A program made the translations under genes and the position numbers. From positions 1-64,000 of the forward strand of contig JAIQFL010000005.1 of NCBI GenBank assembly GCA_020073365.1: a DNA stretch of 64,000 bases, written 5' to 3'. Positions 4,836 to 37,123 of this stretch are shown here, in pieces. The stretch is from Terriglobia bacterium (lineage in GTDB: Bacteria; Acidobacteriota; Terriglobia; Bryobacterales; Bryobacteraceae). Under the pieces are notes generated by a model. It did no database searches. It had not been told where the DNA came from and was given only the letters and a program-made list of their open reading frames with translations. Every line of letters starts with the position of its first letter. The stretch's first letter is position 1.

Positions 4836-5796
4836 CTACCGCGAGCGGCTCTTGAGGATCTCTTCCACTTGTGCGCGCGCGACCGGCAGCTTGTCGATGT
4901 TTTCGCGCAGCCACCCGGTGAAATCGTTCTCGATGGCGTCGGTCCAGCGCGTATCGATCTGGCCCGCCGTGTACTTCTTTTCGCGCAGCCGCTGGTGGCC
5001 GAAGTGGTCGCGGAGCTGGGTGATCTCGGAGTACTGCACGACTTTCTCGGCAAGCTGCGGCGGGATGAACATGACCCCGCCGTCCCTTCCGAGAACTACG
5101 TCGCCGGGCAGCACGGTGGCGTGCCCGATGCGGATGGGGATGTTGATCCCGATCATGGTCGAGTTCATCTGGGCGCCCGCCGTGAGGTTGCTGAGGTGGT
5201 GCGACGGATCGTAGGAGCGCACGAAGGAAGTGAAATTCTCCAGCTCCTTCAGGCCGTTGATATCGCGCACCGCGCCGTCGTACACGATGCCGTTGCCGCT
5301 CCGGGCATAGATGGCGTTGCCGACATTGTCGCCGATGGATGGGCCATCCTCCTTCAGCCCGAAATGATCGCAGACGTAGACATCGCCAGGCTGGAGCATG
5401 TCCACCGGCCAGGCATTCTGGCCTCCGACGCGGCCATCGCGGTTGCCCTGTTCGGCGATCACGCGGTGGATATCGGGCCGGCCAGGCAGCCACTGGGCGG
5501 TCAGGGCGCGTCCCACCAGCACCTTTTCGGGATGGATGATGGTCCCCCAGTTGTCGTCGTACTGATGGCCATAGGCGGCCTGCTTGATGACGGCCCACGC
5601 CTCCTCCAGCGTGACGGTCTGCATCCGCTTCAGGATGGCGTCGGGCACTTTGGGACGCCCGTCGGCGAAGCGCTCACCCTTCCACTCAGGCGTGTACTTG
5701 ATGAGCATTTCCTTTAGTGAGAATTCCCGGCTGGGAAAAGGCGGGCGCGGCCAGCAGCACGGCCGCAACGATACCGCGGAAATATGTTTGGTTCAT
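4836..5796 (-). CDS. RraA-like (dimethylmenaquinone methyltransferase-fold) protein, interrupted by a frameshift
   Basis: The body matches the RraA / 4-hydroxy-4-methyl-2-oxoglutarate aldolase-like fold: LQPGDVYVCD, the GNAIYARSGNGIVYDGAVRD block, and the late PGDVVLGRDGGVMFIPP motif. Members act as divalent-metal aldolases or decarboxylases, or regulate RNase E. The natural start appears to be the ATG at 5794-5796, five bases after the stop of the enolase-superfamily gene, which opens a clean Sec signal peptide (MNQTYFRGIVAAVLLAAPAFSQP). That frame runs off into a stop. Dropping one C from CCC at 5726-5728 joins it to EFSLKEMLIKYTPEW, the mature domain. Without the shift the open body is 4836-5768. 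This is a sequencing error or a real single-base insertion. It forms an operon with the enzyme upstream. Confidence 0.75.
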
Positions 5797-19438: not shown

Positions 19439-19444
19439 AAGGGC

Positions 19445-20914
19445 CTACACCGCCGCGCGCGATTGGACCAGGCGCGAAAGGTTGTGGGAAAGCTGGGCCA
19501 GTTGAGTGGCCGTCTGGAGTGTTTGTGCCGAGCTCGCCTCGGCCTCCCGTGTAGCTTGCGCCGCGCCGCCAATCGCCGCATTGACCTGTTCCACCGCGGT
19601 CATCTGCTGCTTGGTGCTGAGCCCGATCTCGCGAGCGGCCTGGGTGGTGGTGCCCACCATACCGGCGATCTCCTTGAAGCCGCGGGTCACCTCCTCGAAA
19701 CGATGCAGTCCGGCATCCACCGACTTGGATCCCGTCTCGGTGGCCAGGATCGTGGTATTGACCGCGGCGCGGATCTCTTCCACCAGTTGGCGGATTTCTT
19801 TCGTCGAACCCGATACACGGTCGGCCAATTTGCGAATCTCATCGCCCACCACGGCGAAACGCTTCCCGTGTTCGCCTGCTCCCGCGGCTTCGATGGTGGC
19901 ATTGATCGAAAGAATATTGGTCTGCTCGGCAAGTTCATTGATGATGTCGAGAACGCCCCCGATCTGCTGGGACTTCTTCCCCAGGTTCAACATGTGGCTC
20001 ACGATGGTGTCGACCTGCCGCCGGATGCCTTCTATGGATTCGTGGGACCGCAGCACGGTCTGATCTCCTCCGCGTGCGGCCGCCGCCGTTTCCTCGGCGA
20101 TGTGCGCCACCTGTTGGGCGCTGTCGGCAATCTGACGGGAAGTCGCGAGCAACTCGCTGACCGTGGTGGTGATTTCGTTCATGGCAGTGGCGGCTTCTTT
20201 GGCCCCGGAGGCCTGCTGATTGGCGCTGGTCTGGAGCTCCGCCGAGGAGCTCTGGACGTGCTGGACCGCCACGCCGATTTGCCGGGACAGCGCGCGCCCC
20301 AGCAGCAGCGCCGTAACCGCCGCAAACAGCACCGTCGCAACGGCCAGGCACACTAACAGGGTGCTGGCCATCGAGGCGCGGGCCGTCGAATCGCGCTTTC
20401 CCTCGTCGAGCAGATTCTGTTCACGATCGACGAATGCTTTAATGGTCCCGGCGAGACGCTCCCGCTTGGGCACGGCCTCTTGCTCAACGGTGGTTGCTTC
20501 CTGCAGTCCGTTTTTGGTCTTGCGCAGCAGGATGATGCGCTCCTGCACCGCGGTGAACTCCGCCTCCGCCTTCTGGATGTCACTCAGAAGACGGTGCCCC
20601 TCAGGCGTATAAACGCCCTGGTCCAGGCGGCGGAGGGTTGCGTCGAACGTTTCCGCGGCAATGCGCCGCTGGTCCAGAAGGCGGTCCTCCATCAGCAGGA
20701 GAAATCCCCGGAACGCTGCCGCGTACTCATTGGAAGCCGCCTGCAGTCTCTCGGCGTTGGCCAGATTCTGAGCGTTGATGCCGAGCAAGCGATCCTTGCT
20801 GGCGACGACTGTCTGGAGCGTGTAAACGGCTATCGCCGCGGTGAGGACCGCCAATCCGACCATGACTGCGAAGCCGGCGGTCATCTTCTTCTGAAACGTC
20901 CACAAACCGATCAT
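19445..20914 (-). CDS. Methyl-accepting chemotaxis protein, no HAMP domain seen
   Basis: The 489-residue receptor has a first membrane helix at about 11-33, a helical periplasmic domain of about 150 residues (four-helix-bundle type), and a second membrane helix at about 186-208. It then passes almost directly into the cytoplasmic coiled coil. I find no HAMP domain between the second helix and the signalling region. The hairpin tip reads ELAEQTNILSINATIEAAGAGE, close to the CheA/CheW-binding consensus (quoted here only as the tip motif). It is the only receptor in the island and its ATG overlaps the stop of a cheW (ATGA), so it is probably the dedicated receptor of this array. Confidence 0.92.
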   Translation of the reverse strand: MIGLWTFQKKMTAGFAVMVGLAVLTAAIAVYTLQTVVASKDRLLGINAQNLANAERLQAASNEYAAAFRGFLLLMEDRLLDQRRIAAETFDATLRRLDQGVYTPEGHRLLSDIQKAEAEFTAVQERIILLRKTKNGLQEATTVEQEAVPKRERLAGTIKAFVDREQNLLDEGKRDSTARASMASTLLVCLAVATVLFAAVTALLLGRALSRQIGVAVQHVQSSSAELQTSANQQASGAKEAATAMNEITTTVSELLATSRQIADSAQQVAHIAEETAAAARGGDQTVLRSHESIEGIRRQVDTIVSHMLNLGKKSQQIGGVLDIINELAEQTNILSINATIEAAGAGEHGKRFAVVGDEIRKLADRVSGSTKEIRQLVEEIRAAVNTTILATETGSKSVDAGLHRFEEVTRGFKEIAGMVGTTTQAAREIGLSTKQQMTAVEQVNAAIGGAAQATREAEASSAQTLQTATQLAQLSHNLSRLVQSRAAV

Positions 20915-21450
20915 GATTTTCTCTCCTTGGCCGGTGGCGCGAGCCCGGCCCGTTTTCGAATGGCAGCCGCCAGTCCGGGAATGTCCAATACGGCGCGAAC
21001 CGCCGATCCGATCCGGACCAGTTGGCGGACATACTGCCGCTCACTCTGCTGGTCGCTGAGCCATTCCGGCACTTGCTGGCCTTCGAATCCATCGAAAGCC
21101 AGCCCGATGAGCGTGTCACAGGACACCAGGACCAGCCACGATGGCCCACTCACTCCCGGAGGAATGCCGAGCAGTGCCGCCAGGTCATAGACCGGTATCA
21201 GCGAGCCCCGAAGCGCAGCCAGGCCCCGCAATTCCGGGATCCGGCTGGGCAGGGGGACGATTTTTTTGGATTTCACCAGGCCGGCAATGTGACCGGTGCG
21301 AATCGCGAAGACTTCGCTGCCCACGCGCACCTGGATCACCGATTCCTGGTGTTCGCGGCTCCGGGAGGGCAAGGCGAAGCTTTCGTCGAAAGCCGATCGC
21401 AGTTCGGCTAGCGCTAGCGCATGCAACTCGACCACCGGCTCATCACTCAT
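20911..21450 (-). CDS. cheW: CheW-like coupling protein
   Basis: The 179-residue protein is a CheW domain with short N- and C-terminal extensions: VIQVRVGSEVFAIRTGHI, the ELRGLAALRGSLIPVYDLAALLG block and LVLVSCDTLIGLAFDGF. CheW bridges receptors to CheA in chemosensory arrays. The start overlaps the 3' end of the cheR-like gene and its stop overlaps the MCP start, both as four-base overlaps, so expression is tightly coupled. It is one of two CheW proteins in this operon; they are different in sequence and not simple duplicates. Confidence 0.9.
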   Translation of the reverse strand: MSDEPVVELHALALAELRSAFDESFALPSRSREHQESVIQVRVGSEVFAIRTGHIAGLVKSKKIVPLPSRIPELRGLAALRGSLIPVYDLAALLGIPPGVSGPSWLVLVSCDTLIGLAFDGFEGQQVPEWLSDQQSERQYVRQLVRIGSAVRAVLDIPGLAAAIRKRAGLAPPAKERKS

Positions 21451-22991
21451 AACACTCCTCCCGCGCTCAGGAACTCCGCCCGGCTGAATGCCACCAGCGT
21501 CTCGCGGCTGAAGCCGCCGCCGAACAGCAGGATTCTCGGGGCATCCTCCCGCAGCAGGAGCGTCGCCGCGTGCTGTAGCTCACCACGCGCGGTCATGGAA
21601 TCCGAGGCGCGCTTGGCCAGGCGCCCCAGGTGAAGATGCGGCATGGCGAAGGTAGCATCCAGGTAAATGGCAGCCCGATCGTGCTCCATGGCGGCGGCCG
21701 CATCACCGGCATGTTCACGGCAAAGAGCCATCAGGTAATGCGCGCTGGCATTGAGGTCGTCGGCGCCCAATAGTCTCCGGCATATACCCTCGGCGGCCTC
21801 CAGATCCCCGCCATTGGCCAGCAAAACAGCCCGCAGAAGCTGCGTATCGGCGTCGGCTGTCGTTTCGGGAGGTAAACCATGAAGCAGATCGAGCGCCTCC
21901 CGGAAGCGTTCCTGGCGAAGCAGTTCAAAGGCCAGCCCAAGACCCACCGGACGGCCAGGCGCCGGTAGCTCAGTGGCGTGCGGCAAGCCGGGACCTGAGG
22001 GCTCCAGCCGACAGGGCGAAGACTGCGCCAGCCGGTCGATGCGCCGGCAGGTGTTCTCGACGGCATCCACCCAGGAGAGGTCGGCGTCCGGCGCCACCGA
22101 CGGCAGGATCTCCGGCCGCGGCGGCTCCGTGAATCTCGGGGACAGTGCCTCGCCTGCCCCCGATTTCTGGTAGTAAAAACTGTCGTGCGTGTGCCGTAAG
22201 TGAAACTGTTGCGAGAGTCCCCGCAGCGTCTCCGCGTAGCCCAGAAACAGGTACCCGTCCGGCGCCAGCGCACGCGTGATGCGGGCGATCACCTGCTGCG
22301 CGGCGCTCGGAACGAGGTACATCAGCACGTTCCGGCAAAGAATGATATCGAACCCGTCTTCACTCGGGAAGGATCCGTTCTGGACTCCGGCGAGATTGCG
22401 CTCCTTGATGGAAACCATGGAGCGAATCTGTTCATCGAGGATATAGTCGCTCCCGTCCGGTCGAAAGTACTTGTCCCGGATTTCCGCCGGCGTTTCCCGC
22501 AGCGCCCACGGGGTGTACCTTCCCTTCCGGGCCTTCGCCACCATCAGGGGATTCACGTCGATACCCAGGATGGTGACGTCCCACGACGCGAGGTCCGGGA
22601 ACTGCTCGCGCAAGACGATGGCCAGGGAGTACGCTTCCTCACCCGACGCGCAGCCTGCCGAAAGCAGGCGGAGGCGGCGCTCGGCGGCGCGGGCACGTAT
22701 ACGTTCCGGCAGAGCCATCGCTGCCAGAGCGTGAAAGTGCTCGGCACCTCGAAGGAAATAGGTCTCGGTGATGGTGAGTTCCGCAGCCAGGGCACGCATT
22801 TCCTCGGGCTGATGGGAACGGCCCAGCAGATCCAGATATGCGGCCGGGCCGGGATTCCCGCGGGCCTCCAGGCGACGCTCGAGGACACCCACGACGAAGT
22901 CCAGTTTGCCTTCACCCAAATCCAGGCCGAACCGGCTCGCGATGATGTCGCGGAAACGATCCAGGTGCGCGCGCTCCAGGGATCCAATCAT
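21447..22991 (-). CDS. cheR: CheR receptor methyltransferase with C-terminal TPR-like region
   Basis: The first 280 residues are a CheR methyltransferase: an all-alpha N-terminal domain, TETYFLR, the SAM-binding SAGCASGEEAYSLA motif, GIDVNPLMVAKAR, and FDIILCRNVLMYL. It would transfer methyl groups from S-adenosylmethionine to receptor glutamates, opposing CheB. The C-terminal 230 residues hold a linker and helical TPR-like repeats (ALDLLHGLPPETTADADTQLLRA, ASAHYLMALCREHAGDAAAA), as in CheR proteins of alternative chemosensory systems, where TPRs mediate protein contacts. Both ends overlap neighbouring cheW genes by four bases. Confidence 0.93.
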   Translation of the reverse strand: MIGSLERAHLDRFRDIIASRFGLDLGEGKLDFVVGVLERRLEARGNPGPAAYLDLLGRSHQPEEMRALAAELTITETYFLRGAEHFHALAAMALPERIRARAAERRLRLLSAGCASGEEAYSLAIVLREQFPDLASWDVTILGIDVNPLMVAKARKGRYTPWALRETPAEIRDKYFRPDGSDYILDEQIRSMVSIKERNLAGVQNGSFPSEDGFDIILCRNVLMYLVPSAAQQVIARITRALAPDGYLFLGYAETLRGLSQQFHLRHTHDSFYYQKSGAGEALSPRFTEPPRPEILPSVAPDADLSWVDAVENTCRRIDRLAQSSPCRLEPSGPGLPHATELPAPGRPVGLGLAFELLRQERFREALDLLHGLPPETTADADTQLLRAVLLANGGDLEAAEGICRRLLGADDLNASAHYLMALCREHAGDAAAAMEHDRAAIYLDATFAMPHLHLGRLAKRASDSMTARGELQHAATLLLREDAPRILLFGGGFSRETLVAFSRAEFLSAGGVL

Positions 22992-23473
22992 AGTTTTGGA
23001 AGGGCCAGTTCTTGCCAGACCTCGTCCGGCACGATCCTGCCTGAGCTCAGCACCAACAGGAGCTGCGCATCCAAAGCGCCTACCGCCTCCACGGCGCCGG
23101 CGGCAGTTTGAACCAGGGGCGGCAGGGCGTGGAGCGTGGCGGGGTCGAGCTCAAATACTCCCAGCACCTCGTCAACCGTCAGCGCGACCCGCCGCTCACC
23201 CGCCCGAACCACCACAAAACGGGTGGCCGATCCGCCAGGACTGGCCAACAGCGAGGCCAGGGACACCACCGGTGTGGGCGCTCCGCGAATCATCGACAGG
23301 CCCTCGACGAAGGCTGGCGCACTGGCTACTGCAGCGACGGGCAGCGGGTGCATGATCTCCAGTACATCCGGGAGGTGCAGCGCGCAGGTGCGTTCCCCGG
23401 CGCGGAGCAGCAGAGCCGATCTTGATAGGGCAGCACTCATACCAGGAAACCTTCGGCCCGCCCGGTCCGACAT
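22988..23473 (-). CDS. cheW: CheW-like coupling protein, first gene of the coupled operon
   Basis: This protein of up to 161 residues has a CheW fold: LLLRAGERTCALHLPDVLEIM, GLSMIRGAPTPVVSLASLL, FVVVRAGERRVALTVDEVLGV and a C-terminal strand LLLVLSSGRIV. It is divergent from the second CheW and may couple different partners. The start could be at 23473 or at the internal ATG at 23440; neither has a strong Shine-Dalgarno. About 105-140 bases separate it from the upstream CpaE-like gene, the largest gap inside this cluster, so a promoter for the eleven-gene che/kinase operon may lie at 23474-23577, although I cannot identify its boxes. Confidence 0.85.
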   Translation of the reverse strand: MSDRAGRRFPGMSAALSRSALLLRAGERTCALHLPDVLEIMHPLPVAAVASAPAFVEGLSMIRGAPTPVVSLASLLASPGGSATRFVVVRAGERRVALTVDEVLGVFELDPATLHALPPLVQTAAGAVEAVGALDAQLLLVLSSGRIVPDEVWQELALPKL

Positions 23474-23577
23474 TGCAGCGGAAATACAGCCGAGCCGGCC
23501 TACTACCGTTCCTGGCCTATCTATCGACGCTCCGGGCGGAGTTCTTTACAGCAACCCCGCGATTTGCGACGCCGGCA

Positions 23578-24750
23578 TCAAGCCGCCAGGAAGCGTGCGG
23601 GACCCGAGCTCAACCTCCGTGCCACATCCTGGATCGTCTGAGAGAAGGGCATATCGGGATGGCTCAGCACCGGCGGCACCTGGGATTCACTCCCAGCCTG
23701 CAAATCGGCGGCGGGCGGGACGACGCCGAGGATTCCGCAGCCCAGCCGCTTGCTGAATTCCGGTGGCGTGAGGAATTCGATGAAGGGAGTCTTGTTGATG
23801 AGGACTGCGCCCACCGCGCCGGGGCGCGCCACGATGGCCTGGAGGGCCGGCATCTTCGCCTTCGCGGCGTGTAGACCAATCCGGTTGCGTTCCACCACCA
23901 GGGTCGTAAAAGACGAATGTTGAATCACTTCCTCAATCGACGGTGCAAAGATCGAAGGCACGTCGACGAGGATATAGTCCGCCAGGGCGCGCGCCACCCC
24001 CAAAAGGGCCCGCGCCTGCTCCGTCGATACGGGATGGTAGTCCTCCGGCCGCTGGGGTCCGCACAGCGCTCGGAAGCCGCCACCGAATTCTTCCAGACAG
24101 GACGCCACGGCCTCGCGCGAAATCGTTTCGGGTGCGCCCCGGAGAAGCGTTGAGATATCCCACGACGGCGTATGGTTTAACAGCGTCGCGAAGGAGCCGT
24201 ACTCGGGCATGAGCTCGATCGCGATGACGGTTTTGCCGCCCTTGGCCAACGCGGCGGCGAGATTGACCACCAGGGTGGTGGTTCCCACGCCTCCCTTGGC
24301 GCCGATGAAACTGAAGATCTTCCCGCTCTTGACGGCTTTTTCGGAGCCCTGGCGCTTGAGCCGGCTCCGCTCCACGGCATACCGGATGCGCTGCGCCAGG
24401 AAGCGATCCCGGATGTCGCTCTTGATCAGATACTCGTCGGCGCCCGCGCGCACCGCTTGCAGAGCCAGATCTTCGTCTTCGTGGCCGGTCAATACAATGA
24501 CGGCCCGATCCGGGGCTTTCTGCCGGACACAGGCGAAGGTCTCGAAGCCACTGCTGTCGGGGAGGTTGAGGTCCAGGAGAACGGCCTGAAAGCTCCGTTC
24601 CGCGAGGCGCTCGATGCCGCTGCGAAGATCGCCCACCCACTCCAGTGCCACGGGCGCGCCCCCCCCTTTGGTGAGGACGTGTTGGATCAGCCTGGCTGCG
24701 TCCGGCTCGTCCTCGATCAGCAAAACGGATAGCTCAGATTCCTGCTGCAT
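23578..24750 (-). CDS. Receiver-ParA/MinD-like ATPase (CpaE/TadZ type)
   Basis: The N-terminal receiver (about 1-125) has EDEPDA, acceptor Asp in LLDLNLPDSSG and Lys in LIKSDI. It is fused to a ParA/MinD-type P-loop ATPase domain with a deviant Walker A (SFIGAKGGVGTTT). The switch region reads IELMPEYGS instead of the usual IDLDPQ, so ATP turnover may be altered. This architecture is that of CpaE/TadZ proteins, which localise Tad/Flp pilus machinery at cell poles. No tad or cpa pilus gene is in the window. It overlaps the receiver-HPt gene upstream by about 17 bases. A paralogue lies on the other strand at about 29.4-30.5 kb. Confidence 0.88.
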   Translation of the reverse strand: MQQESELSVLLIEDEPDAARLIQHVLTKGGGAPVALEWVGDLRSGIERLAERSFQAVLLDLNLPDSSGFETFACVRQKAPDRAVIVLTGHEDEDLALQAVRAGADEYLIKSDIRDRFLAQRIRYAVERSRLKRQGSEKAVKSGKIFSFIGAKGGVGTTTLVVNLAAALAKGGKTVIAIELMPEYGSFATLLNHTPSWDISTLLRGAPETISREAVASCLEEFGGGFRALCGPQRPEDYHPVSTEQARALLGVARALADYILVDVPSIFAPSIEEVIQHSSFTTLVVERNRIGLHAAKAKMPALQAIVARPGAVGAVLINKTPFIEFLTPPEFSKRLGCGILGVVPPAADLQAGSESQVPPVLSHPDMPFSQTIQDVARRLSSGPARFLAA

Positions 24751-25786
24751 AATCTCCTCGGTGTTCTGGCGAAGGCCCTACCATGCCGATGTACGCATCG
24801 ATCTGGTCCAGCAGGGCCTCGATTGCGGCGGCGTTATCGTCTTTGGCGGCTGCCTCGAGTGCTCTCCCGATATCGGTGAGCTCGGCAAAACCATATGCGG
24901 CGCCCGTGCCTTTCAGGTTGTGCCCGGCCTTGCGAAGAGCGGCGAAGTCCCCATTCTTGAGCGCATGTTCCAGGCTGCTCATCTCCGCGCGCCGGTTTTC
25001 GAGGTACCCGGCGCGCAGTTCCACCAGGCCGGGAGCCACGTCGGGGTCGCGCTCGACCAGTTCCCGGCAGAAACGGATCACGGACCGGAAGCGGCTGCGA
25101 GATCTGGCTGTGGTGGCCTTCGAAAGCCGTTCCGCCTGCTGTAGATAACCGGCCAGCGCGCCATGCTCAAGGCCTCCTACAACTTCCGCCAGGCGTTGTA
25201 AACCGGTCCCGGTGCCGGGCGCAAACTGCGAGTACGGCAAATCCGCCTCAATCGCATACAGCAGTTCCGCGGCCTGTTTCCGGCGATCGGCCGCCGGGGT
25301 GGTGGGGAGAGGCGGTTCGACTGCGTGCTTCGACGGCTCTTGCCGGGGTGATTCGAGAAATGCGCGCACCCGGCCGGGAAAGCTGCGCGCGTCGATCGGT
25401 TTTCCGATGTGTCCGTCAAACCGGCCAACCGGCTCGGGATCGCCGTGTGTGCTCCTCTCGGTCAACGCCACGATCGGTACGGGGGCCAGTTCCGCATCCG
25501 CAAGCAGATGGCGCGCTAACCGCGTTCCATCCGCGGCGGGGACCTGCGAGTCGAGCAGAATCAAATCCGGGTGGAAACTGGACAGTTTTTGGATCGCCGC
25601 TTCAGCCGTGTCGGCCGTCTCCAGGCGATACGTTTCATCAGCCAGCGCCAGGCACATTGCCCGCAGGCTGTCAGGATGGTCCTCGATAATGAGAATCGCT
25701 TTCTGCCCGGCGGTTGGCGCCGGTCTCATTGCCGCGGCCACGGGTTCCTTCCGCCGCCCCAGGGCTGCCATTAAGTTGCGGATCAT
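24734..25786 (-). CDS. Receiver-HPt phosphorelay protein
   Basis: The protein has a short N-terminal stretch, a receiver domain (about 30-150; EDHPDS, acceptor Asp in LILLDSQVPAADG, Lys in IGKPID), a helical linker, and a C-terminal HPt domain whose acceptor His lies in AGHNLKGTGAAYGF. It can therefore both receive phosphate on Asp and hold it on His, a relay module. I choose the ATG at 25786-25784 because it overlaps the stop of the upstream gene (ATGA); the frame stays open to 25885 inside that gene. With hybrid kinases and lone receivers nearby, it is a plausible hub connecting them. Confidence 0.88.
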   Translation of the reverse strand: MIRNLMAALGRRKEPVAAAMRPAPTAGQKAILIIEDHPDSLRAMCLALADETYRLETADTAEAAIQKLSSFHPDLILLDSQVPAADGTRLARHLLADAELAPVPIVALTERSTHGDPEPVGRFDGHIGKPIDARSFPGRVRAFLESPRQEPSKHAVEPPLPTTPAADRRKQAAELLYAIEADLPYSQFAPGTGTGLQRLAEVVGGLEHGALAGYLQQAERLSKATTARSRSRFRSVIRFCRELVERDPDVAPGLVELRAGYLENRRAEMSSLEHALKNGDFAALRKAGHNLKGTGAAYGFAELTDIGRALEAAAKDDNAAAIEALLDQIDAYIGMVGPSPEHRGDYAAGI

Positions 25787-26703
25787 GGCTGCTCCCCAGC
25801 TCCCGGTTGGGAGCTGCCGTTCAGCATCCAGCGTTTGGCGAGCCTTCCTCCGGACGCCGCGCTCTCCGACAAAGACCGGGCCCACCGCCGGGGGTTGCGA
25901 GCGCCGGTGGACAGCCGTCGCCTCACCCGGTTGAGCAGAAGGGTAGGGCTCACCGGCTTGCCGAGATACTCGTCGGCGTCGAGCTCCGAGCCGCGCAGGA
26001 CGTCGCTGGAATCGTCGCAGCCCGTCAACAAAATCACCGGAAGCATTTGCAGGCCCGGATCGCGCCGCACGGTTTCCAGCACCTCGAACCCGTCCATCCC
26101 TGGCATTTTGACGTCGAGCACGAGAAGGTCGGGGGCGAGTTCGCGCGCCAGCCGTAAAGCCGCCAGCCCATTGTCCGCTGTGCGGCAGGCGATCCCGTCA
26201 TTCCGCAGCGTGGCAGCCACCAGGGCGACCAACTCCGGATCGTCGTCGGCCAGCAGCACCAGGGGTTCCACCCTGGATTCCCGGACCGCAGCGCGAGAAC
26301 CGCCGGGAAACGGAAGCAGGCGAAAAAGACGTACCAGCAGCTCGGCGTCCGGCCATGGCTCGCCCATGAAATCGCGAGGCCAGGAGTAGGCCGCGCCGGC
26401 CCCTTCCAATATCGCTTCGCTGGGGCCGGCCACCAGAATTGGCGCGGGCGATGCGGCCGCCGCTCGCAGCCCCTCCGGGCTGATGCCGGCCAGCTTGATG
26501 AGCAGCGCGTCGCAAACCCGCGCGGATTCGCCGAGCAGGCGCTCGTCGAAAAGCAGAGCGAGCGAACTGGCGCCGCCAAGGACCCGGGATATTCTCTGTG
26601 CCTCGCCGGCATCGAATCCGCACAAGCCGAAGCGGCGCCCCGCCAGTGCGGCGGTGATCTCCAGCGCCTGCGCGGGCTTCCCGGATTGCTCCACCGTCCG
26701 CAT
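25783..26703 (-). CDS. Response regulator with a degenerate and an intact receiver
   Basis: The 306-residue protein begins with a receiver-like domain (about 20-130) lacking the acidic pocket and acceptor Asp, followed by a canonical receiver (about 150-265; ADDDPE, acceptor Asp in LVLDVKMPGMDG, Lys in LGKPVS) and a basic tail. It has no DNA-binding or enzymatic output, so it probably works by dimerisation or protein contact. The pseudo-receiver first half may bind a partner independent of phosphorylation. It overlaps the receiver-HPt gene by four bases. The NtrC-type gene ends about 100 bases upstream. Confidence 0.82.
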   Translation of the reverse strand: MRTVEQSGKPAQALEITAALAGRRFGLCGFDAGEAQRISRVLGGASSLALLFDERLLGESARVCDALLIKLAGISPEGLRAAAASPAPILVAGPSEAILEGAGAAYSWPRDFMGEPWPDAELLVRLFRLLPFPGGSRAAVRESRVEPLVLLADDDPELVALVAATLRNDGIACRTADNGLAALRLARELAPDLLVLDVKMPGMDGFEVLETVRRDPGLQMLPVILLTGCDDSSDVLRGSELDADEYLGKPVSPTLLLNRVRRRLSTGARNPRRWARSLSESAASGGRLAKRWMLNGSSQPGAGEQP

Positions 26704-26804: not shown

Positions 26805-28286
26805 TTATTGCGCCGGGTCGCGCCGGGCTCGATTGAGCAGACGATACAGCGTGGCGCGGCTGACGCCCAGCAGCCGGGCGGCCTCGTGCTTGTCGCCGCC
26901 GGTCCGGGCAAGTATCTCGAGAACGTGCCGGTTCTGTGCCTCTGCGCGGCCGGTATCGCGCATCGCGCACTCCGGCGATGGGGGGTCGTAAGCGGTTCCC
27001 AGGTAGGCCGGAAGATCGCCCACATCGATCCAGGGTGAACCCGCCATTACGGCGCCGTAGTGAATCGCCTGCTCGAGCTCGCGTATGTTGCCCGGCCATG
27101 AGTGTGCGAGAAGGAGTGCCTCGGCGGCCGGCGTCAGGCCGGATAGCTCCTTGTGAACCTCCCTTCCGGACCGGTTCAGAAAATGCCGGATCAGCAACGG
27201 AACGTCCTCTCTCCGATGTGCCAGGGGTGGCAAGAAGAGCTCGAAAGTGCCGAGACGGAAAAACAGATCCTCCCGGAACGTCCGGTTGCGAACCGCCGCA
27301 CGGAGATCCCGGTTGGTGCAGGCCACGATGCGCACATCCACGTGTACCGGTGAGCTCGCTCCCAATCGCTGCACCTCGCCAAACTGCACCGCGCGCAGCA
27401 GGGCCGCCTGCGCGGTCAGAGGCAGGTCTCCGATCTCGTCCAGCATGAGAGTTCCGCCCGCGGCGCGGCCGAAATAGCCGGCGGAATCGCCCACCGCGCC
27501 GGTGTACGCGCCTCTGACGCGGCCGAACAGCTCCGCTTCCATCAGAGAGTCGGGTATGGCAGCGCAATTACAGACCACAAAAGGACCGTCGTTGCGACTG
27601 CTGTAGGTGTGCAGCGCTCGCGCCACGAGCTCCTTGCCGGTGCCGCTCGGGCCGCTTACCAGCGCTGCCCGAAAATGCGGTCCAATGCGCCGCACCAGGT
27701 CGAAAATGTTGCGAATCGCCGGACTGCGTCCCACCATGCCTTCAAATGAATACCTGGTCGCGAGGTCGCTCTCGGCAACCTGCAGCTCCTGGTGGCTGCG
27801 GATGGCTTGTACGCTGCGGCCCAGGGCTTCGCGAAGCCGGTTCACAGCCACCGGCTTCGTCAGGTAGTCGCTCGTGCCTGCCCGGATCGCGGCGACCGCC
27901 GCCTCGGTCGAGTAGTCCGCGGTGAGGAGGAGGACCTCGATGCGCGGATGTACGGCCCGGATCCGGCGCAGGAGCTCGATGCCATCGATGTCCGGGAGTT
28001 TCAGATCGAGAACCGCGATATCGGGCCATTCCATCTGTATGGCATCCAGGCACGCCTGCCCGGTCGGATACGTCTCGACGGCGAAGCCTTCGGGCATGAA
28101 GGCGCGCAGGATGGCCAAGGCGGCGGGGTCGTCATCTACCGCAACCAGTTGTATCGAGCGATGGATCAAACTGGAGAGTGTCTCAAAGCTGAGAAAATTC
28201 TCTCTCAAAAATGAGACACGTGGATACGGCCTGTCTCCAACCTGCTGAAATCTGACGGATGGATCTGGAAAGCCACGTGCATACAC
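26805..28286 (-). CDS. NtrC-family sigma54-dependent response regulator
   Basis: Domains in order: receiver (AVDDDP, acceptor Asp in IAVLDLKLPDIDG, Lys in LTKPVA), AAA+ sigma54-activation domain with Walker A (SGPSGTGKE), an ELFG...GAYTGA loop (a Tyr variant of GAFTGA), Walker B (GGTLMLDEIG) and arginine finger region, and a C-terminal Fis-type helix-turn-helix (HEAARLLGVSRATLYRLL). It activates sigma54 promoters by ATP hydrolysis when phosphorylated. The open frame starts at GTG 28286, but the receiver begins only at about residue 45. A TTG at 28169 would fit better, and would place the paired dyads at 28181-28216 upstream of the gene, suggesting autoregulation. Confidence 0.92.
   Translation of the reverse strand: MYARGFPDPSVRFQQVGDRPYPRVSFLRENFLSFETLSSLIHRSIQLVAVDDDPAALAILRAFMPEGFAVETYPTGQACLDAIQMEWPDIAVLDLKLPDIDGIELLRRIRAVHPRIEVLLLTADYSTEAAVAAIRAGTSDYLTKPVAVNRLREALGRSVQAIRSHQELQVAESDLATRYSFEGMVGRSPAIRNIFDLVRRIGPHFRAALVSGPSGTGKELVARALHTYSSRNDGPFVVCNCAAIPDSLMEAELFGRVRGAYTGAVGDSAGYFGRAAGGTLMLDEIGDLPLTAQAALLRAVQFGEVQRLGASSPVHVDVRIVACTNRDLRAAVRNRTFREDLFFRLGTFELFLPPLAHRREDVPLLIRHFLNRSGREVHKELSGLTPAAEALLLAHSWPGNIRELEQAIHYGAVMAGSPWIDVGDLPAYLGTAYDPPSPECAMRDTGRAEAQNRHVLEILARTGGDKHEAARLLGVSRATLYRLLNRARRDPAQ
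28181..28216. promoter_or_regulatory. Paired dyads TCTCA-N4-TGAGA, candidate activator-binding sites
   Basis: Two perfect 14-bp dyads, TCTCAAAGCTGAGA (28181-28194) and TCTCAAAAATGAGA (28203-28216), lie 22 bp apart centre to centre, which is two helical turns. They sit at the 5' edge of the NtrC-type gene and upstream of the divergent plus-strand genes. The layout matches upstream activator sites bound by enhancer-binding protein dimers, and they are natural candidates for sites of the adjacent regulator. No binding data are available from sequence. Confidence 0.6.
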
Positions 28287-28699
28287 CTTCCCCGGAAAGT
28301 ATCTTCACGCCGTTGAGTTATTTGGCCCGGTCTACCTCTGAGGCGCCCGCGAGGTTTCCTGCCCCTTGCGAGCGCCTTCCTCTCCTCTCAGCGGGCATCT
28401 GCCTCAGTGACACGTTGACCGCATTCCCCCGCAGCGACACACACGAGCCCTTGAGGAATGCCAGCAAGCGTCCGATCCGGTGGCAGTGACATGCGCAGGC
28501 GTGCACTCCCGGTGGGCGGGGCTCCCTTGAGGAATGGGTTGGCCTTGCACGTGCAATTGGTTTAGGCGAGGGCTGCTGGAACCAGTCGAAGCACATGCGG
28601 CCCGCGAGAGGACAGACGTGACGTGACCAGGCGCCGCACCCGATTCCACGTACGGATACAAGAGAGACGGCCGGAGACCCTTGAATCACGGAGACGCGT
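28287..28699. other. Divergent intergenic region with repeats and a sigma54-like element
   Basis: This 413-base non-coding stretch separates the minus-strand activator gene from the plus-strand receiver gene. It holds a 13-bp direct repeat CCCTTGAGGAATG at 28448-28460 and 28524-28536, and a sigma54-like promoter at 28540-28555. I see no gene in it. The spacing between the dyads at 28181-28216 and this promoter is about 345 bases, within the range over which enhancer-binding proteins can act. Confidence 0.6.
28540..28555 (+). promoter_or_regulatory. Candidate sigma54 promoter (or palindromic operator)
   Basis: TGGCCTTGCACGTGCA has the GG-N10-GC spacing of sigma54 promoters, with TGGC at -24 and TGCA at -12. 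It would start transcription near 28566, upstream of the receiver gene at 28700. The same bases contain a perfect 12-bp palindrome TTGCACGTGCAA (28545-28556), so an operator is the alternative reading. Confidence 0.4.
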
Positions 28700-29233
28700 A
28701 TGACCCCGGAAGCGCGGGGACTCTTTCCCGGGGCCGTTAGAGACGGCCACCTGCCGGGCACCCACGGGTTCCCATCGATCGAGCGGATGCATCGGCCGGC
28801 GCCCCGGCCGTTACATATTCTCGTGGTGGAAGACAACACCATCAACCAGCGGGTGGCGGAACGCATCCTGGACAAGCTGGGACACACCTGGGTCACGGTG
28901 TCCAACGGGCGGGAGGCGCTTCAGGCGGTCGATTCCGAGGACTTCGACGTGGTCCTGATGGACATCCAGATGCCTGAGATGGACGGCCTGGAAGCCACCC
29001 GTAGAATCCGCGAGCAGGAACGAAACAACGGCGGACATCTGCCCATCATCGCCTTGACTGCGAATGTGCTCGACGGCGATCGGGAACAGTTCCTGGAAGG
29101 CGGCATGGACGGCTACGTTCCAAAGCCGGTTCGCGTTAGCCAACTCCTGGAGGCGATCGACGACGTGTTATGCGCCGGGAGCGCTCCACTCGCTCGAGGG
29201 CCCCATGCGGCACCAGGCGGACCGCTCTCATGA
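28700..29233 (+). CDS. Single-domain response regulator
   Basis: The 177-residue protein is one receiver domain with a 38-residue N-terminal extension and a Pro/Gly/Ala-rich tail. It has VVEDNT, acceptor Asp in VLMDIQMPEMDG, Thr in IALTANV and Lys in VPKPVR. The sequence is of the type fused to the C-terminus of BarA/EvgS-like hybrid kinases and closely resembles the second receiver of the large kinase downstream. It may therefore be a detached receiver of that system. The ATG at 28700 follows a GGAGA ribosome binding site; a second Met at 28787 is possible. It is the first gene on the plus strand of the island. Confidence 0.85.
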   Translation: MTPEARGLFPGAVRDGHLPGTHGFPSIERMHRPAPRPLHILVVEDNTINQRVAERILDKLGHTWVTVSNGREALQAVDSEDFDVVLMDIQMPEMDGLEATRRIREQERNNGGHLPIIALTANVLDGDREQFLEGGMDGYVPKPVRVSQLLEAIDDVLCAGSAPLARGPHAAPGGPLS

Positions 29234-29369
29234 TGCGGCCACCTTGCGGGCCGCGAGCGCTTGCCATCCATGGCCAGCCTTTCTCTACCGCCGTGGTCCC
29301 GGCGACTCCAGGCGGAACCGCACTACGCAAGACCCGGATCGCTCGCGGCAATCACTAGGAGGCATGCTC

Positions 29370-30533
29370 GTGTCGACACGTGTTTTGGTAATCGAGGACA
29401 ACAAAGACTACGAAGGTCTTCTGACCTCCGTTCTGGCCCAGCGCGATGGCGCTTTCGACTTGCAGTCTGCCGGCACGCTCTCGGAGGGGCTCCAGGCGAT
29501 CGAACGCATCCGCCCGGAGGTCATCCTGGTCGACCTCGATCTGCCGGACAGTTCCGGATATCCCACATTCCAGCGCGTGCGCGAGGTGGCGCACGACGGT
29601 TGCCTGATCGTATTAACAGGATTGGACGACGAGGACACCGCTATCCAGGCTATGGAAGACGGTGCCCAGGACTACCTCGTTAAGAGCCTGACCCAACCAA
29701 GGACGGTCCCGCAGCGAATTCAAATGGCGCTCCAACGCCGCCGCCGGCGGGCGCCCCTGCCCATTTCCCCCAAAGCGTTGGTGCTCGGATTCCTGGGTAG
29801 CAAGGGCGGCGTCGGAACGTCGACCCTCGCGGAGAATCTGGCAGCCATACTCGCTATGGAAGGCCAGGAGACCGCCATCGTGGATTTTCAGCCCTCTCCG
29901 GAGCGGCACGCGGCTAGTGGCGCCGCCGCGCCCGCGCACGATTTGAACCACCTCCTCTCGAAGCCCGCCGGAGTGATCACCGCGGCGGAGCTGAAAGAAT
30001 GCACGACGGAGTTGATGCATGGGCTCCGTCTGCTGCGGATGAAGACGGCGGAGGGCGTCTGGCGGCCGCTCGGCGCCGCATACGTGACCGCCATCGTATC
30101 GCTGGTGCGCCAGTTCTGTACGCACGTGGTGTTGGATTTGGGATCGCGAGTGGATGAGAGCGTGGCCGCGGCTTTGAGGGCCTGTGATATTGTAACCGTC
30201 GTGCTGGATACCGACCCGGCTGCTATTGATTCCTGCGCCACGCTCCTGCGCCAACTGGAAATGGTGATGAGCCCCAAGATGCCGGAGATCCGGCTCGTGG
30301 CTGTCGACCGCTTGCACCACAACCAGGGCACGGTCGCGAACCAGATGGTCCGCCACTTGAAGATGAGGCCGGTGCTCACCGTGACGCCGGCAGCCGACGA
30401 TCTGGCGACTGCGTATCTGGCGGGAATGCCCCTGTTAACCACGTTCCATCCCGATGACGCGTTTCGCCGCTCGATACAGGCCTTGGCCGATGCCCTCCTT
30501 TCTTCGGCTTCCGGCCGAGACGGCGTGCCGTAG
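29370..30533 (+). CDS. Second receiver-ParA/MinD-like ATPase (CpaE/TadZ type)
   Basis: An N-terminal receiver (VIEDNKDY, acceptor Asp in ILVDLDLPDSSG, Lys in LVKSLT) is fused to a ParA/MinD-like domain with deviant Walker A GSKGGVGTST. The switch motif is degenerate (VDFQPSPERHAA), and the Walker B-like strand reads HVVLDLGSRVD. It is a paralogue of the protein at 23578-24750 with the same architecture. The GTG at 29370 is preferred because AGGAGG (29357-29362) sits seven bases before it; the ATG at 29364 is only one base from that site. The frame is open further upstream but overlaps the receiver gene. A role in positioning machinery is inferred from CpaE. Confidence 0.87.
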   Translation: MSTRVLVIEDNKDYEGLLTSVLAQRDGAFDLQSAGTLSEGLQAIERIRPEVILVDLDLPDSSGYPTFQRVREVAHDGCLIVLTGLDDEDTAIQAMEDGAQDYLVKSLTQPRTVPQRIQMALQRRRRRAPLPISPKALVLGFLGSKGGVGTSTLAENLAAILAMEGQETAIVDFQPSPERHAASGAAAPAHDLNHLLSKPAGVITAAELKECTTELMHGLRLLRMKTAEGVWRPLGAAYVTAIVSLVRQFCTHVVLDLGSRVDESVAAALRACDIVTVVLDTDPAAIDSCATLLRQLEMVMSPKMPEIRLVAVDRLHHNQGTVANQMVRHLKMRPVLTVTPAADDLATAYLAGMPLLTTFHPDDAFRRSIQALADALLSSASGRDGVP

Positions 30534-30932
30534 GGCGACCTTCACGATGGGGCGGCGCGCAGGCTCGCCCACCAGGCGTTGCGCGGCGCAGCGGCGCCAA
30601 AGCCGAGATTCCATTCGCAGCCTCGCTCGCGCGGCGTCCCCAATGCCTTCAAAGGGTGGCTGCCACCAGCCGGTTCGCGGGATGATCTCCGCCACGAATC
30701 CACGGCGTGCCTGGTCTTGTCATCCTGCCGGCTAATCCATGAGCCTCGTTTGGCCGATAAGGTAGCCGAGGGTTCAAGTGTCAGACCAGCAAGCCGGTGG
30801 ATGCCGAAGAGCTTTTCCCGAATCGAGCGTGTACTGGCCGAGGCCGGACCGAGGAGCGCCCCAGGCTGCGAGAGGGCTAAGCCCCGCGCAGCACGGTCCG
30901 GCGCGGTGGCCTCATCAGTCAGCGGGGATGTA
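30534..30932. other. Non-coding leader with a receiver-gene fossil
   Basis: A 399-base stretch lies between the CpaE-like gene and the large hybrid kinase. The kinase frame is open through it, but its composition and a 2-base deletion relative to the live gene argue that it is not translated. It contains the 3'-end fossil described at 30788-30870. I see no clear sigma70 or sigma54 promoter. Confidence 0.5.
30788..30870 (+). pseudogene. Fossil of the 3' end of a hybrid kinase/receiver gene
   Basis: These 83 bases align at about 80% by eye with 34842-34919, the last codons of the downstream hybrid kinase. The first ten codons read SKPVDAEELF in one frame. After a 2-base deletion the next codons read IERVLAEAG in another, against SKPVDAEELFSTIEQVLAG in the live gene. 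It looks like the remnant of a deleted or recombined paralogue immediately upstream of the surviving gene. Confidence 0.65.
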
Positions 30933-33900
30933 ATGCAGGTTCTACCGTGTGTCGGACTGTTCGCGCAATTTGGCCGAAGGATAGCCGGCGAGCCGATATT
31001 TTCGGCGGTGCTCATGCTGTTGGTGCTGGCGGCCGCCTTCGTCACCTATCGGCGCACTCTCAAGGCTCGAATCCGGGACCGCCTCCGCAGTGTCCTGGAA
31101 TCGATGCCCGAGGCCTTGGCGCTGCTCGACGGCGACGGCCGCATGGTGGTCGTCAATTCTAAAACCGCGAGCCTGTTCGGATATCGACCCGCGGAGTTGC
31201 GGGGGCAGTCCATGGCTGAACTGGCGCCGCCGGGAACGGCCCGGGAGTGTTGGCTCGAGATGCTCCTTTTGGCAGGCCGCAGCCGGAGCACACCGGATTG
31301 GCTGGAGTCCGAAGGCCGCCGCAAGAATGGGACCGTCTTTCCCGTCGAGATTGGATTGAGCCCGGTCTCGGGTACGCGACGGGTCCTGTGGTACGCCGTC
31401 CTCCGCGATATCGGCGAACGCACCCGCGCAAAAGAGAGTCTGAAAGAAAGCCGCGCCTGCTTGGATCTGGCCCTCGAATCCGCACAGATGGGCGTCTGGG
31501 ACCTGGACCTGGTTCACGATACCAGCGTTCGCACTCTGCAGCACGATCGGATTTTCGGCTACACCTCGATCCAGCCCGACTGGCGCACTGAGGACTTCTT
31601 CCACCACGTGGTGCCCGAAGATCGGGAACGGGTTCGCGCTGCGCTCCAGGAGGCCCTGCGAACCGGCTACCTTAACAATGAATGCTGGATCGCAAGGCCG
31701 GATGGTTCCCGGCATGCTATTGCCGTGCAGGGCCGCACGTACTACGGCCTGGAGGGGAAACCCGTGCGCATGCTTGGCGTGGTTGTGGAGACCACCGAAC
31801 GCCGCCGCGTCCTGGAAGCGCTGCAGACCAGCCAGGAACGGTATCGCGCATTGGTGGAGACGACCAGCGATTGGATCTGGGAGACCGACGCCGAAATCCG
31901 GTTCAGTTACTCCAGTCTGAAAGTGCGGGACATGCTCGGATACGAGCCGGAGGAACTCATCGGCAGCCCCGCCCTGGAACTTGTAGTCCCCGAAGAAAGG
32001 GACGGTGTCGAAAGGAAAATCCGGGACCTGCAGGCCACGCCCAGGTCTTTCTCTGGACTCGAAGGGACCTGCCGCGGCAAAGACGGGCGCCTGGTGGTCC
32101 TCGAAATGAACGGGGTGCCCGTGTTTGCGGCCAATGGGGTGCTCGCCGGCATGCGCGGCATCGGCCGCGACATCACCGGCCGCAGGCAGGCAGAAAGCGC
32201 TATCCAGCAGAGCGAGGAGCGCTACCGCAGGCTGCTGGCGAATCTGCCCGATGTCGCCTGGACATCCGACATCCAAGGGAACACGTCCTATATCAGTCCT
32301 AACGTGGAAAGCGTGTTCGGATACACCTCCGAAGAGATCTGCCGCGATGGCAGCGAGCTGTGGTTTGGACGAATACACCCGGACGATCGCGCGGCGGTGC
32401 TGGACGCCTTCTCCGCGCTCTTTGCGCAGAACCGGCCCTTTAATGTCGAATACCGGGTCCAGCGGAAAGATGGGGAGTGGATCTGGGTTCTGGACCGGGC
32501 TTTGCGGACTTTCCAGTCGGATGGCGTCCGCTATGCCGACGGCGTCTTCTCGGACGTCACCACCAGAAAACACACCGAAGAGGCCCTGGCGGAATCCGAG
32601 AGACGCTACCGCCACCTGTTCGAGCGGAACCTGGCGGGAGTTTTCCGTGTGGCTCCCGACGGGCGCTACCTCGACTGTAATGAGACTTGCGCGCGTACAT
32701 TAGGCTACGAGTCCCGGGAAGAGTTCCTGCAACATCGCGCGGCAGATCTATTCTTCGATCCTGCCGACCTGCAAACTGCGATGGCGCGGATTTTGCAACA
32801 GAAATCGCTCGTCAATCTGGAACTCCGCCTCAGACGCAAGGACGGCGGCAGTGCCTACGTTCTGGAGAACGTCAACCTGGTGGAGAACGAATGCGGCGAA
32901 CCCTATGTGATCGAGGGCACGTTTATCGACATCACCCAGCGCAAGCTGGCTGAGGAGGCCGCCCTGGAGGGCTCTGTAAGGTTCAAGAGTATTTTCGACG
33001 CCGTGCAGACCGGGATCGTCATCATCGATCCCGAAACCCATCGGATCGTGGATGCCAATCCCGAGGCTCTGCGCCTGGCCGGCCGCGCGCGCGAAGCGGT
33101 GGTCGGCGCCGAGTGCCATGAGTTCATCTGCCCGGCCGAGAGGGGACGCTGCCCGGTGACCGACCTGGGGCAGAACGTGGACAACTCCGAGCGCGTTATG
33201 CTCAACGCCGCCGGCCAAGGATGCCCCATCGTCAAGACTGTGGTGCGGGTGAACATTTCCGGACGCCAGCATCTGCTGGAAAGCTTCGTCGACATCGGCG
33301 ATCGCAAGCGCGCCGAGGAGGCTCTGCGGCGCGCCATGGAAGCGGCCCAAGCCGCATCCCGCGCCAAGAGCGATTTCCTGGCCAACATGAGCCACGAGAT
33401 TCGCACTCCCATGAACGGCATCCTCGGTATGACCGAACTGGCGTTGGACACGGATTTGGCGGCCGAGCAGCGCGGGTATCTCGACATCGTCAAGAGCTCC
33501 GGGGAATCTCTTCTTACGGTCATCAACGACATCCTTGACTTCTCCAAAGTCGAAGCCGGCAAGCTGGAGCTCGAATCGGTCGAGTTCAATCTGCGGGACA
33601 GCCTGGAAGCGGGCATGAAAGCCCTCGGCGTGCGTGCCTTCGACCGGGGCCTGGAGCTCAACTACTCGGTGCAGCCAGAGGTGCCCGAGGTTCTGGCCGG
33701 AGACTCGGGGCGCTTGATCCAGATCCTGACCAATCTCGTAGGCAATGCCGTCAAGTTCACCGAGTGTGGCGAAGTATCTGTAGAGGTCGAGCGGGAATGG
33801 GAACGTGACCGACAGGTCTGTTTGCACTTCAGCGTCCGGGACACGGGGATCGGTATCCCCGCGGAGAAGCAGGCCTCGATTTTCGATGCTTTCGCCCAGG

Positions 33901-34949
33901 CCGATTGTTCCACGACCCGGCGCTACGGCGGGACCGGCCTGGGGCTCACCATCTCGCGACGCCTGGTGGGGATGATGGGAGGCCGAATCTGGCTGGACAG
34001 CGCTCCAGGAGCGGGCAGCACCTTTCACTTCACCGCGGTCCTCGGCATGGGCTGCGCGCCGGAGCAAAAGGAGCCCCAAGGCCTGGATTTAAGCGGCATG
34101 AGGGTGCTGGTGGTGGACGATAACGCCGCCAACCGGCGCATCCTGGAGGCGCAGTTCACCGCCTGGCACATGCAGCCCATTCTGGCAGCGGATGCGCGCA
34201 CCGCTCTCCATCTTCTGACGCATGCGGCAGATGCCGGGCAGCCGTTTCCGCTCGCTGTAGTGGATGCACAAATGCCGGAAACCGACGGTTTCGCCTTGAT
34301 TGCCGAGATGCGGCGGGACCCGAGGCTTGCGCCAACGGCCATCCTGGTCTTGACCTCGGCCGCCCAGACGGGCGACGCCGCCTGTTGCCGGGATCTGAAT
34401 GTGGCGGTGCACCTGATTAAGCCGGTGGGGCGCTGTGAGTTGAGAAAAGCGATCCTCCAGGTTCTGGGGAACGAACGGCAGGCGCGGCCGCAACCGCGGC
34501 CTTCCACACCATCGGCCGAGCGGTATCCCAGTCTGCGCATCCTGCTCGCCGAGGACAATCCGGTCAACCGGTTGCTGGCCGTTCATCTACTGGAGAAACG
34601 GGGCCACGCTGTAGTCGAGGCGGTGAACGGCCGGGGCGCGGTGGACGAACTCGCACGCGGCGCCTTCGATCTGGTTCTGATGGATGTGCAGATGCCCGAG
34701 ATGGACGGATTCGAGGCCACGGCCGCGCTCAGGGAGAAAGAAAAGACGACCGGCCGCCACCTTCCGGTCATAGCCATGACGGCCTACGCGATGCGAGGCG
34801 ATCGCGAGCGCTGCCTCGCGGCGGGAATGGACGGCTATATCAGCAAGCCGGTCGATGCCGAAGAGCTCTTCTCAACCATCGAGCAGGTACTGGCCGGGAC
34901 CGGATCCGGCAGCGCTCCCGTGCTGCACCCGTGTTCCGGAACTCGATAG
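30933..34949 (+). CDS. Six-PAS hybrid histidine kinase with two C-terminal receivers
   Basis: From the ATG at 30933, preceded by GGGG six bases upstream, the product has 1338 residues. It has one N-terminal membrane helix (about 18-38), then six PAS domains opening near LESMPEALALLDG, LESAQMGVWDLD, VETTSDWIWETD, LANLPDVAWTSD, FERNLAGVFRV and FDAVQTGIVIID. A HisKA domain (NMSHEIRTPMNG) and HATPase_c (NLVGNAVKF, DTGIGIP, GTGLGLTISRR) follow. Two receivers end the protein, with Asp in AVVDAQMPETDG and VLMDVQMPEMDG. This is a BarA-like layout, apart from no HPt domain; the receiver-HPt protein at 24734-25786 could supply one. The frame is open to 30579 but that part is probably not translated. 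Confidence 0.92.
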   Translation: MQVLPCVGLFAQFGRRIAGEPIFSAVLMLLVLAAAFVTYRRTLKARIRDRLRSVLESMPEALALLDGDGRMVVVNSKTASLFGYRPAELRGQSMAELAPPGTARECWLEMLLLAGRSRSTPDWLESEGRRKNGTVFPVEIGLSPVSGTRRVLWYAVLRDIGERTRAKESLKESRACLDLALESAQMGVWDLDLVHDTSVRTLQHDRIFGYTSIQPDWRTEDFFHHVVPEDRERVRAALQEALRTGYLNNECWIARPDGSRHAIAVQGRTYYGLEGKPVRMLGVVVETTERRRVLEALQTSQERYRALVETTSDWIWETDAEIRFSYSSLKVRDMLGYEPEELIGSPALELVVPEERDGVERKIRDLQATPRSFSGLEGTCRGKDGRLVVLEMNGVPVFAANGVLAGMRGIGRDITGRRQAESAIQQSEERYRRLLANLPDVAWTSDIQGNTSYISPNVESVFGYTSEEICRDGSELWFGRIHPDDRAAVLDAFSALFAQNRPFNVEYRVQRKDGEWIWVLDRALRTFQSDGVRYADGVFSDVTTRKHTEEALAESERRYRHLFERNLAGVFRVAPDGRYLDCNETCARTLGYESREEFLQHRAADLFFDPADLQTAMARILQQKSLVNLELRLRRKDGGSAYVLENVNLVENECGEPYVIEGTFIDITQRKLAEEAALEGSVRFKSIFDAVQTGIVIIDPETHRIVDANPEALRLAGRAREAVVGAECHEFICPAERGRCPVTDLGQNVDNSERVMLNAAGQGCPIVKTVVRVNISGRQHLLESFVDIGDRKRAEEALRRAMEAAQAASRAKSDFLANMSHEIRTPMNGILGMTELALDTDLAAEQRGYLDIVKSSGESLLTVINDILDFSKVEAGKLELESVEFNLRDSLEAGMKALGVRAFDRGLELNYSVQPEVPEVLAGDSGRLIQILTNLVGNAVKFTECGEVSVEVEREWERDRQVCLHFSVRDTGIGIPAEKQASIFDAFAQADCSTTRRYGGTGLGLTISRRLVGMMGGRIWLDSAPGAGSTFHFTAVLGMGCAPEQKEPQGLDLSGMRVLVVDDNAANRRILEAQFTAWHMQPILAADARTALHLLTHAADAGQPFPLAVVDAQMPETDGFALIAEMRRDPRLAPTAILVLTSAAQTGDAACCRDLNVAVHLIKPVGRCELRKAILQVLGNERQARPQPRPSTPSAERYPSLRILLAEDNPVNRLLAVHLLEKRGHAVVEAVNGRGAVDELARGAFDLVLMDVQMPEMDGFEATAALREKEKTTGRHLPVIAMTAYAMRGDRERCLAAGMDGYISKPVDAEELFSTIEQVLAGTGSGSAPVLHPCSGTR

Positions 34950-36376: not shown

Positions 36377-37123
36377 ATGAAACAACGGTTCGCCGCTCTG
36401 GCGATCATCACCCTTTTCTGCGCGCTGGGGACTGCCTCTGCGTCAGTCATCGGCGTGCTTAATGTGACAGACTGTGGCGGTGGCGGTGTCACAGTATCGA
36501 CCACTGCCATCGATTGGATACTGCCGGTTGGCAGCGGTTTTGGATGCATCCAAGCCGATGCCCTGACCAATGTGACGTTTTCGGGCGGAAACATTGCACC
36601 TACGGAGCTTGGGAACATCAAGGATCTGGTTTTCGGCGTTACTTCCGGGACCAATTTCATGGTTTTCTCGGGCGCTCCTGGTGTCGGCACCCTCGCTTTC
36701 GACCTCACCTCGGTTGCTCCGGGACTTCTAACACCCTGTAGTGCTGGAATGAATACTGGTGATAGTTGCTCAGTGGGCGGTTTTGGGCCGTTCATCTTAA
36801 CCAAGACTGCGACAGGCACCAGCATATCTCTGACCGCACTAGGCACGACGAGCGATGGAACGACTCCGATTTCCAATTGGGAGGGGTCTTATACCACTCA
36901 ATTCGCTGGCCTTGCTCCGATCGACATCCAGAACTTCATTCTCGGCATCCCGGATTCCAACACCGGATTGGGTTGCGTGTCCGGGTCGTGCACCAGTACG
37001 TTTTCCGGTTCGTTCGCCATTACGGCGGGCAGTTCCGTTCCTGAGCCGGGTTCGTTGGTCTTGATTGGCGCCGGGTTGCTGGGTCTTGCGACCACTCTCC
37101 GGAAACGGAAGAAGAAGAAGTAG
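36377..37123 (+). CDS. PEP-CTERM sorting-signal secreted protein
   Basis: The 248-residue protein has a Sec signal peptide (MKQRFAALAIITLFCALGTASA), a low-complexity Gly/Ser/Thr-rich body, and a textbook PEP-CTERM tail: VPEPGSLVLIGAGLLGL followed by a basic end (RKRKKKK). Such proteins are exported and recognised by exosortase (EpsH-type), which cuts near the PEP motif, often in exopolysaccharide-producing bacteria. No exosortase is in this window, so it must be encoded elsewhere. The gene has its own promoter and is followed by a strong terminator, so it is a single transcription unit. The function of the body is unknown. Confidence 0.9.
   Translation: MKQRFAALAIITLFCALGTASASVIGVLNVTDCGGGGVTVSTTAIDWILPVGSGFGCIQADALTNVTFSGGNIAPTELGNIKDLVFGVTSGTNFMVFSGAPGVGTLAFDLTSVAPGLLTPCSAGMNTGDSCSVGGFGPFILTKTATGTSISLTALGTTSDGTTPISNWEGSYTTQFAGLAPIDIQNFILGIPDSNTGLGCVSGSCTSTFSGSFAITAGSSVPEPGSLVLIGAGLLGLATTLRKRKKKK

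Follow-up and report, generated by a model that had tools for sequence, protein, structure and literature searches.

Two palindromes lying between the gene for an NtrC-type response regulator and a divergent signalling operon, in the 64,000-nucleotide stretch of DNA analysed here (the window), are very probably binding sites of that regulator, and as a pair they likely constitute its enhancer (UAS), from which it would activate the divergent operon at a sigma54 promoter. The dyads are read as sites of the regulator because the same palindrome adjoins related regulators and target genes in other genera. Phylogenetic footprints lend this reading good support, as do an association with one type of recognition helix and the spacing to outward-facing boxes that resemble sigma54 promoters. 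The features concerned are the following.

26805..28169, - strand: NtrC-type response regulator (Pfam, homologues, codon composition, HTH alignment)
28178..28197: predicted UAS site 1, GTGTCTCA-AAGC-TGAGAAAA, with core dyad 28181-28194, TCTCAAAGCTGAGA
28200..28219: predicted UAS site 2, CTCTCTCA-AAAA-TGAGACAC, with core dyad 28203-28216, TCTCAAAAATGAGA
28266..28281, + strand: top -24/-12 candidate, TGGAAAGCCACGTGCA (GG-N10-GC), which faces the receiver operon at 68 bp from the UAS centre
28540..28555, + strand: second candidate -24/-12 element, TGGCCTTGCACGTGCA (TGGC-N8-TGCA; GG-N10-GC), 342 bp from the UAS
28700..29233, + strand: receiver-only protein (Pfam Response_reg), first gene of the divergent operon, start backed by codon composition; inferred target
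29364..30533, + strand: receiver fused to a MinD/CpaE-like ATPase (Pfam); inferred target
30579..34949, + strand: multi-PAS hybrid histidine kinase with two receivers (Pfam; ORF start undefined); inferred target

The regulator combines an N-terminal receiver domain (PF00072, E=2e-25), an AAA+ sigma54-interacting domain (PF00158, E=3e-58) with a loop of the GAFTGA type, GAYTGA (within GRVRGAYTGA), and a C-terminal FIS-type HTH (PF02954) whose recognition helix reads SRATLYRLL. Sigma54 itself is encoded in the genome (PF04552 at G000:C666, E=2e-58). The longest reading frame of the regulator, opening at GTG 28286, takes in both dyads, but they lie upstream of the likely true start, as the earlier note had supposed. 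GC at codon position 3 is 0.44 in 28170-28286 versus 0.77-0.81 in the gene body, the only in-frame ATG, GTG or TTG starts after GTG 28286 are TTG 28208 and TTG 28169, and the regulators of relatives begin at the equivalent of TTG 28169. This last codon is the probable start, and no strong Shine-Dalgarno sequence was found ahead of it. Since codon composition and homologue starts both point to TTG 28169, the dyads, which end about 10 bp upstream of it, are very probably outside the regulator protein.

Both core dyads match TCTCA-N4-TGAGA without mismatch, exactly as first described, and their centres are 22 bp apart, that is, two helical turns. The outer arms are longer than the core (GTGTCTCA, 28178-28185, and TGAGACAC, 28212-28219), and therefore the natural half-site would be close to TGTCTCA. 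Dinucleotide shuffles of the window rendered a mean of 0.04 such dyads and never two. A search for paired dyads, proposed in the earlier note as a check, found no second pair anywhere in the genome (12.1 Mb), even when three mismatches were tolerated, and the reversed control gave none. Single dyads are present genome-wide at the chance rate (6 versus 5 in the reversed control), those elsewhere in the genome being mostly intragenic, and a genome-wide regulon of single dyads was rejected because these counts are at the control level.

Homologues of the regulator (ca. 41-53% identity) were gathered from relatives in 257 genomes, and the regions upstream of 90 subfamily regulators, the window being left out, were scanned for the arm GTCTCA at a spacing of N3-4 with at most one mismatch in 12. 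The scan is a fair test because GTCTCA had been taken from the window beforehand. GTCTCA-N3/4-TGAGAC was detected upstream of five of them (L031, L045, L149, L151 and L155), as compared to a mean of 0.22 loci in a control over all 4096 arms (Poisson P of ca. 4e-6). Only one arm exceeded GTCTCA, and the other frequent arms were mostly GC-rich. The remaining 85 regulators, many of them intra-operon, have no such dyad within 500 bp, and none was found upstream of 99 paralogues or distant homologues, a negative set that includes the hits of a scan of genome contigs, all of them distant homologues. The spacing is N4 in most loci and N3 in L045 and L149, and the 14-mer upstream of the regulator at L031 (G042) is identical to the core dyad of site 2. 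Scans of whole loci added further dyads at L147 and L157. Larger flanks of 15 more homologues held three dyads, one of them the perfect dyad found at a DUF481 gene in L214, which does not go beyond the control arms (mean 0.8, the largest also reaching three). The sole further match to the paired dyad in the 257 genomes, in G252 (L168), was discarded, as it belongs to a repeat array whose surrounding genes are unrelated.

All the dyad-bearing regulators carry the helix RAT(L/V)YR. With the window left out, a dyad is present for 7 of the 28 regulators with this helix and for none of the 62 without it (Fisher P=1.6e-4), and among the C-termini listed for the window genome's own paralogues RAT(L/V)YR does not occur.

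The palindrome was also found at likely target genes in relatives. In G043 (L214), a DUF481 gene located 5 kb from the regulator has a perfect GTCTCAGGCCTGAGAC ca. 90 bp upstream, in G078 a dyad lies in the gap separating a divergent DUF481-like gene from the regulator, and in G042 the DUF481 gene is preceded by two half-palindromic TGAGAC sites and the box TGGCAAGGAGCGTGCT. In relatives such as G042 and G043, genes linked to the regulator encode a coiled-coil protein, an OmpA-like protein, a histidine kinase and a DUF481 protein, as well as a small protein called GTPase-like on the strength of its P-loop sequence alone. In G115, G116 and G117, the gene for a 40-residue membrane protein is preceded by dyads and a conserved CGG-N10-GC box. 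Its homologue in G042, found by search on a contig other than that of the regulator, has a perfect GTCTCACCGCTGAGAC and TGGCAGTGAAGTTGCT upstream, and a chance dyad at this position is very unlikely because only three N4 dyads (at most one mismatch) occur in the 5 Mb of G042. The closest parallel to the window is G146, where a divergent two-receiver gene is preceded by a dyad and TGGCCCCAGGATTGCA (12.8 bits). No gene neighbourhood like that of the window was found in G042 or G026. On the basis of these comparisons, the DNA code seems to have been kept while the targets differ.

A sigma54 promoter has GG-N10-GC in a TGGCAC/TTGC context, and candidates were scored with an approximate -24/-12 matrix, drawn from general knowledge of the consensus, whose maximum is ca. 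18.8 bits. Both elements, at 28266 and 28540, have GG-N10-GC, but by this approximate matrix they are mediocre (10.4 and 9.6 bits, ranking 20th and 30th of the window's sites of this kind), and TTGC is present in neither. The chance of two + strand sites of this score in 28217-28699 is ca. 0.006. Outward -24/-12-like boxes were found 40-160 bp from 9 of 13 dyad clusters, as compared to 8% of random positions (P of ca. 7e-8), the range having been chosen after the loci were seen; without L214, where the box is intragenic, and L210, where it is other than the conserved candidate, seven remain. This spacing is obeyed by the 28266 element but not by the 28540 element. The former is favoured over the latter because its 68 bp match the spacing in relatives, and it is most likely the main promoter, the 28540 element possibly being used too. 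Thus, the element at 28540 that the earlier note had described, TGGC-N8-TGCA with GG-N10-GC spacing, is real, but it is probably not the main promoter, and the higher-scoring one closer to the dyads had been missed. Both elements share TGG-N5-CACGTGCA, which was rejected as a special motif, since it is at genome-wide background (162 versus 148). The intergenic region also contains two copies of CCCTTGAGGAATG, at 28449-28461 and 28526-28538, 77 bp apart. No RNA element was recognised in 28291-28699, where folding is ordinary (z 0.30 and 1.16) and the Rfam match is sub-threshold only.

The regulator would be phosphorylated by a kinase that may be the neighbouring one, perhaps encoded in the operon itself, the hybrid histidine kinase being a possible partner. 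In its phosphorylated form it would bind both palindromes, following the code GTCTCA-N4-TGAGAC, and oligomerise. Through a DNA loop it could then contact sigma54-RNA polymerase at a + strand -24/-12 promoter, most likely that at 28266-28281 and possibly also that at 28540-28555, so that the receiver / receiver-MinD / hybrid-kinase operon would be switched on. Binding at the dyads would probably also limit transcription of the regulator's own gene, since the closeness of the sites to its start suggests negative autoregulation. The earlier proposal that the activator binds the dyads and drives the plus-strand genes thus seems right in outline, with good support from the footprints, the helix association and the box spacing, except for the promoter chosen for it (28540); the proposed control of its own gene is suggested by the position of the sites.

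An alternative is that the dyads are an operator for the regulator's own gene only, acting in autorepression, and that the promoter of the + strand operon is unrelated to them. The dyads abut the regulator start codon here and are near it in L045 and L151, and the -24/-12 boxes of the window are weak. We consider this unlikely, however, given that dyads are also found at other genes in G042, G043 and G146, at one of them unlinked to the regulator and mostly with sigma54-like boxes downstream, and that outward boxes are over-represented at the distance expected of an enhancer. Binding of the dyads by another transcription factor controlling this intergenic region, with which the chance rate of single dyads in the genome would be compatible, is less probable again, because the dyad follows one regulator subfamily and one helix type from genus to genus while the genes next to it vary. 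The dyads could also act at the RNA level, as hairpins in the regulator's mRNA leader that work as an attenuator or occlude the start site, given that TTG 28169 follows closely after them and 5-bp stems are possible; but the dyad of L031 is 240 bp from the gene, those of L142, L239 and L212 are upstream of a promoter-like box and hence outside the mRNA, and no notable Rfam match was found, which makes this very improbable. Chance palindromes can practically be dismissed, since single dyads are indeed at background in the whole genome but the tandem pair never arose in shuffles, has no second copy in the genome and consists of a motif that is conserved beside relatives.

The arrangement in the window is best read as a sigma54 enhancer of the ordinary type whose recognition code is conserved, basically a familiar gene switch. 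With the NtrC-family two-component sigma54 activators it shares the receiver-AAA+-FIS order, a predicted tandem palindromic UAS, a divergent candidate promoter of sigma54-like type and a sigma54 encoded in the genome, and it differs from them in that GTCTCA-N4-TGAGAC matched no published sigma54 activator motif in the literature searched, and in that the predicted targets here are signalling proteins. In Desulfovibrio, many enhancer-binding proteins are divergent to the sigma54 promoter that they serve, with UASs located ca. 100 bp or more upstream (PMC4641369), and validated response-regulator sites are mostly inverted repeats whose arms of 4-6 bp are 3-8 bp apart (PMC3333781). The layout of the window agrees with this literature in the divergence of activator and candidate promoter, in the inverted-repeat form of the sites and in the upstream position of the predicted UAS. 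Those Desulfovibrio systems (PMC4641369, PMC3333781) nonetheless involve other motifs, organisms and targets, and binding was tested there. Sigma54 control of cell-envelope functions (PMC3162934) resembles what is found in relatives, where the regulator is associated with OmpA-like, DUF481 and small membrane proteins, but in the window the links are to receiver, receiver-MinD, hybrid kinase and chemosensory genes.

It is conceivable, although we hold it with a little less than even confidence, that the regulators form an NtrC-type clade within one bacterial family (probably of Acidobacteriota) in which the enhancer code (helix RATLYR, site GTCTCA-N4-TGAGAC) has stayed fixed and the targets have been exchanged. 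In several genera these would be genes of the envelope (DUF481, small membrane protein) and in others signalling genes, and in the window the regulator would have been rewired to the receiver / receiver-MinD / hybrid-kinase operon that adjoins a chemosensory cluster. A regulator clade with a constant DNA site and changing neighbour targets would make the rewiring of a sigma54 regulon directly testable. The host group is little studied and has dozens of sigma54 activators per genome; for one such uncharacterised regulator, an enhancer code, promoter candidates and predicted targets are now ready to test.

Some further observations were made in the relatives. The small membrane protein (L210, L212, L241-L244; G115, G116, G117, G042) has ca. 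35-40 amino acids and an FGRFLF-x-F motif, and is a conserved protein found in one genus only, with weak matches elsewhere. In G146, a second dyad cluster, GTCTCAACGCGAGACAGGCTGTCTCA (L211:5840-5880), precedes a sigma factor-like gene (4848-5681, - strand) by ca. 160 bp, and no -24/-12 box was found at this cluster. In G026 (L143), a FliA-like sigma gene adjoins the regulator. In G042 (L142:9022-9310), ca. 270 nt separate an outward -24/-12-like box at 9310(-) from a strong terminator-like hairpin that carries a T run (GGGGCTT...AAGCCCCTCTTTTTT), and this interval lacks a convincing ORF. It is a candidate small RNA, whose overall folding is ordinary (z -0.96).

In the window, the regulator gene has the receiver operon on its plus-strand side and genes for an MCP, CheA-receiver, CheB, CheR and CheW as its minus-strand neighbours. 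The chemosensory cluster, at 16331-26703, comprises CheB, CheA-receiver, the MCP, two CheW and CheR, and the operons around it encode a receiver-Hpt protein and two receiver-MinD/CpaE-like proteins, so that receivers are unusually numerous. A protein with a PEP-CTERM sorting motif is encoded at 36377-37123.
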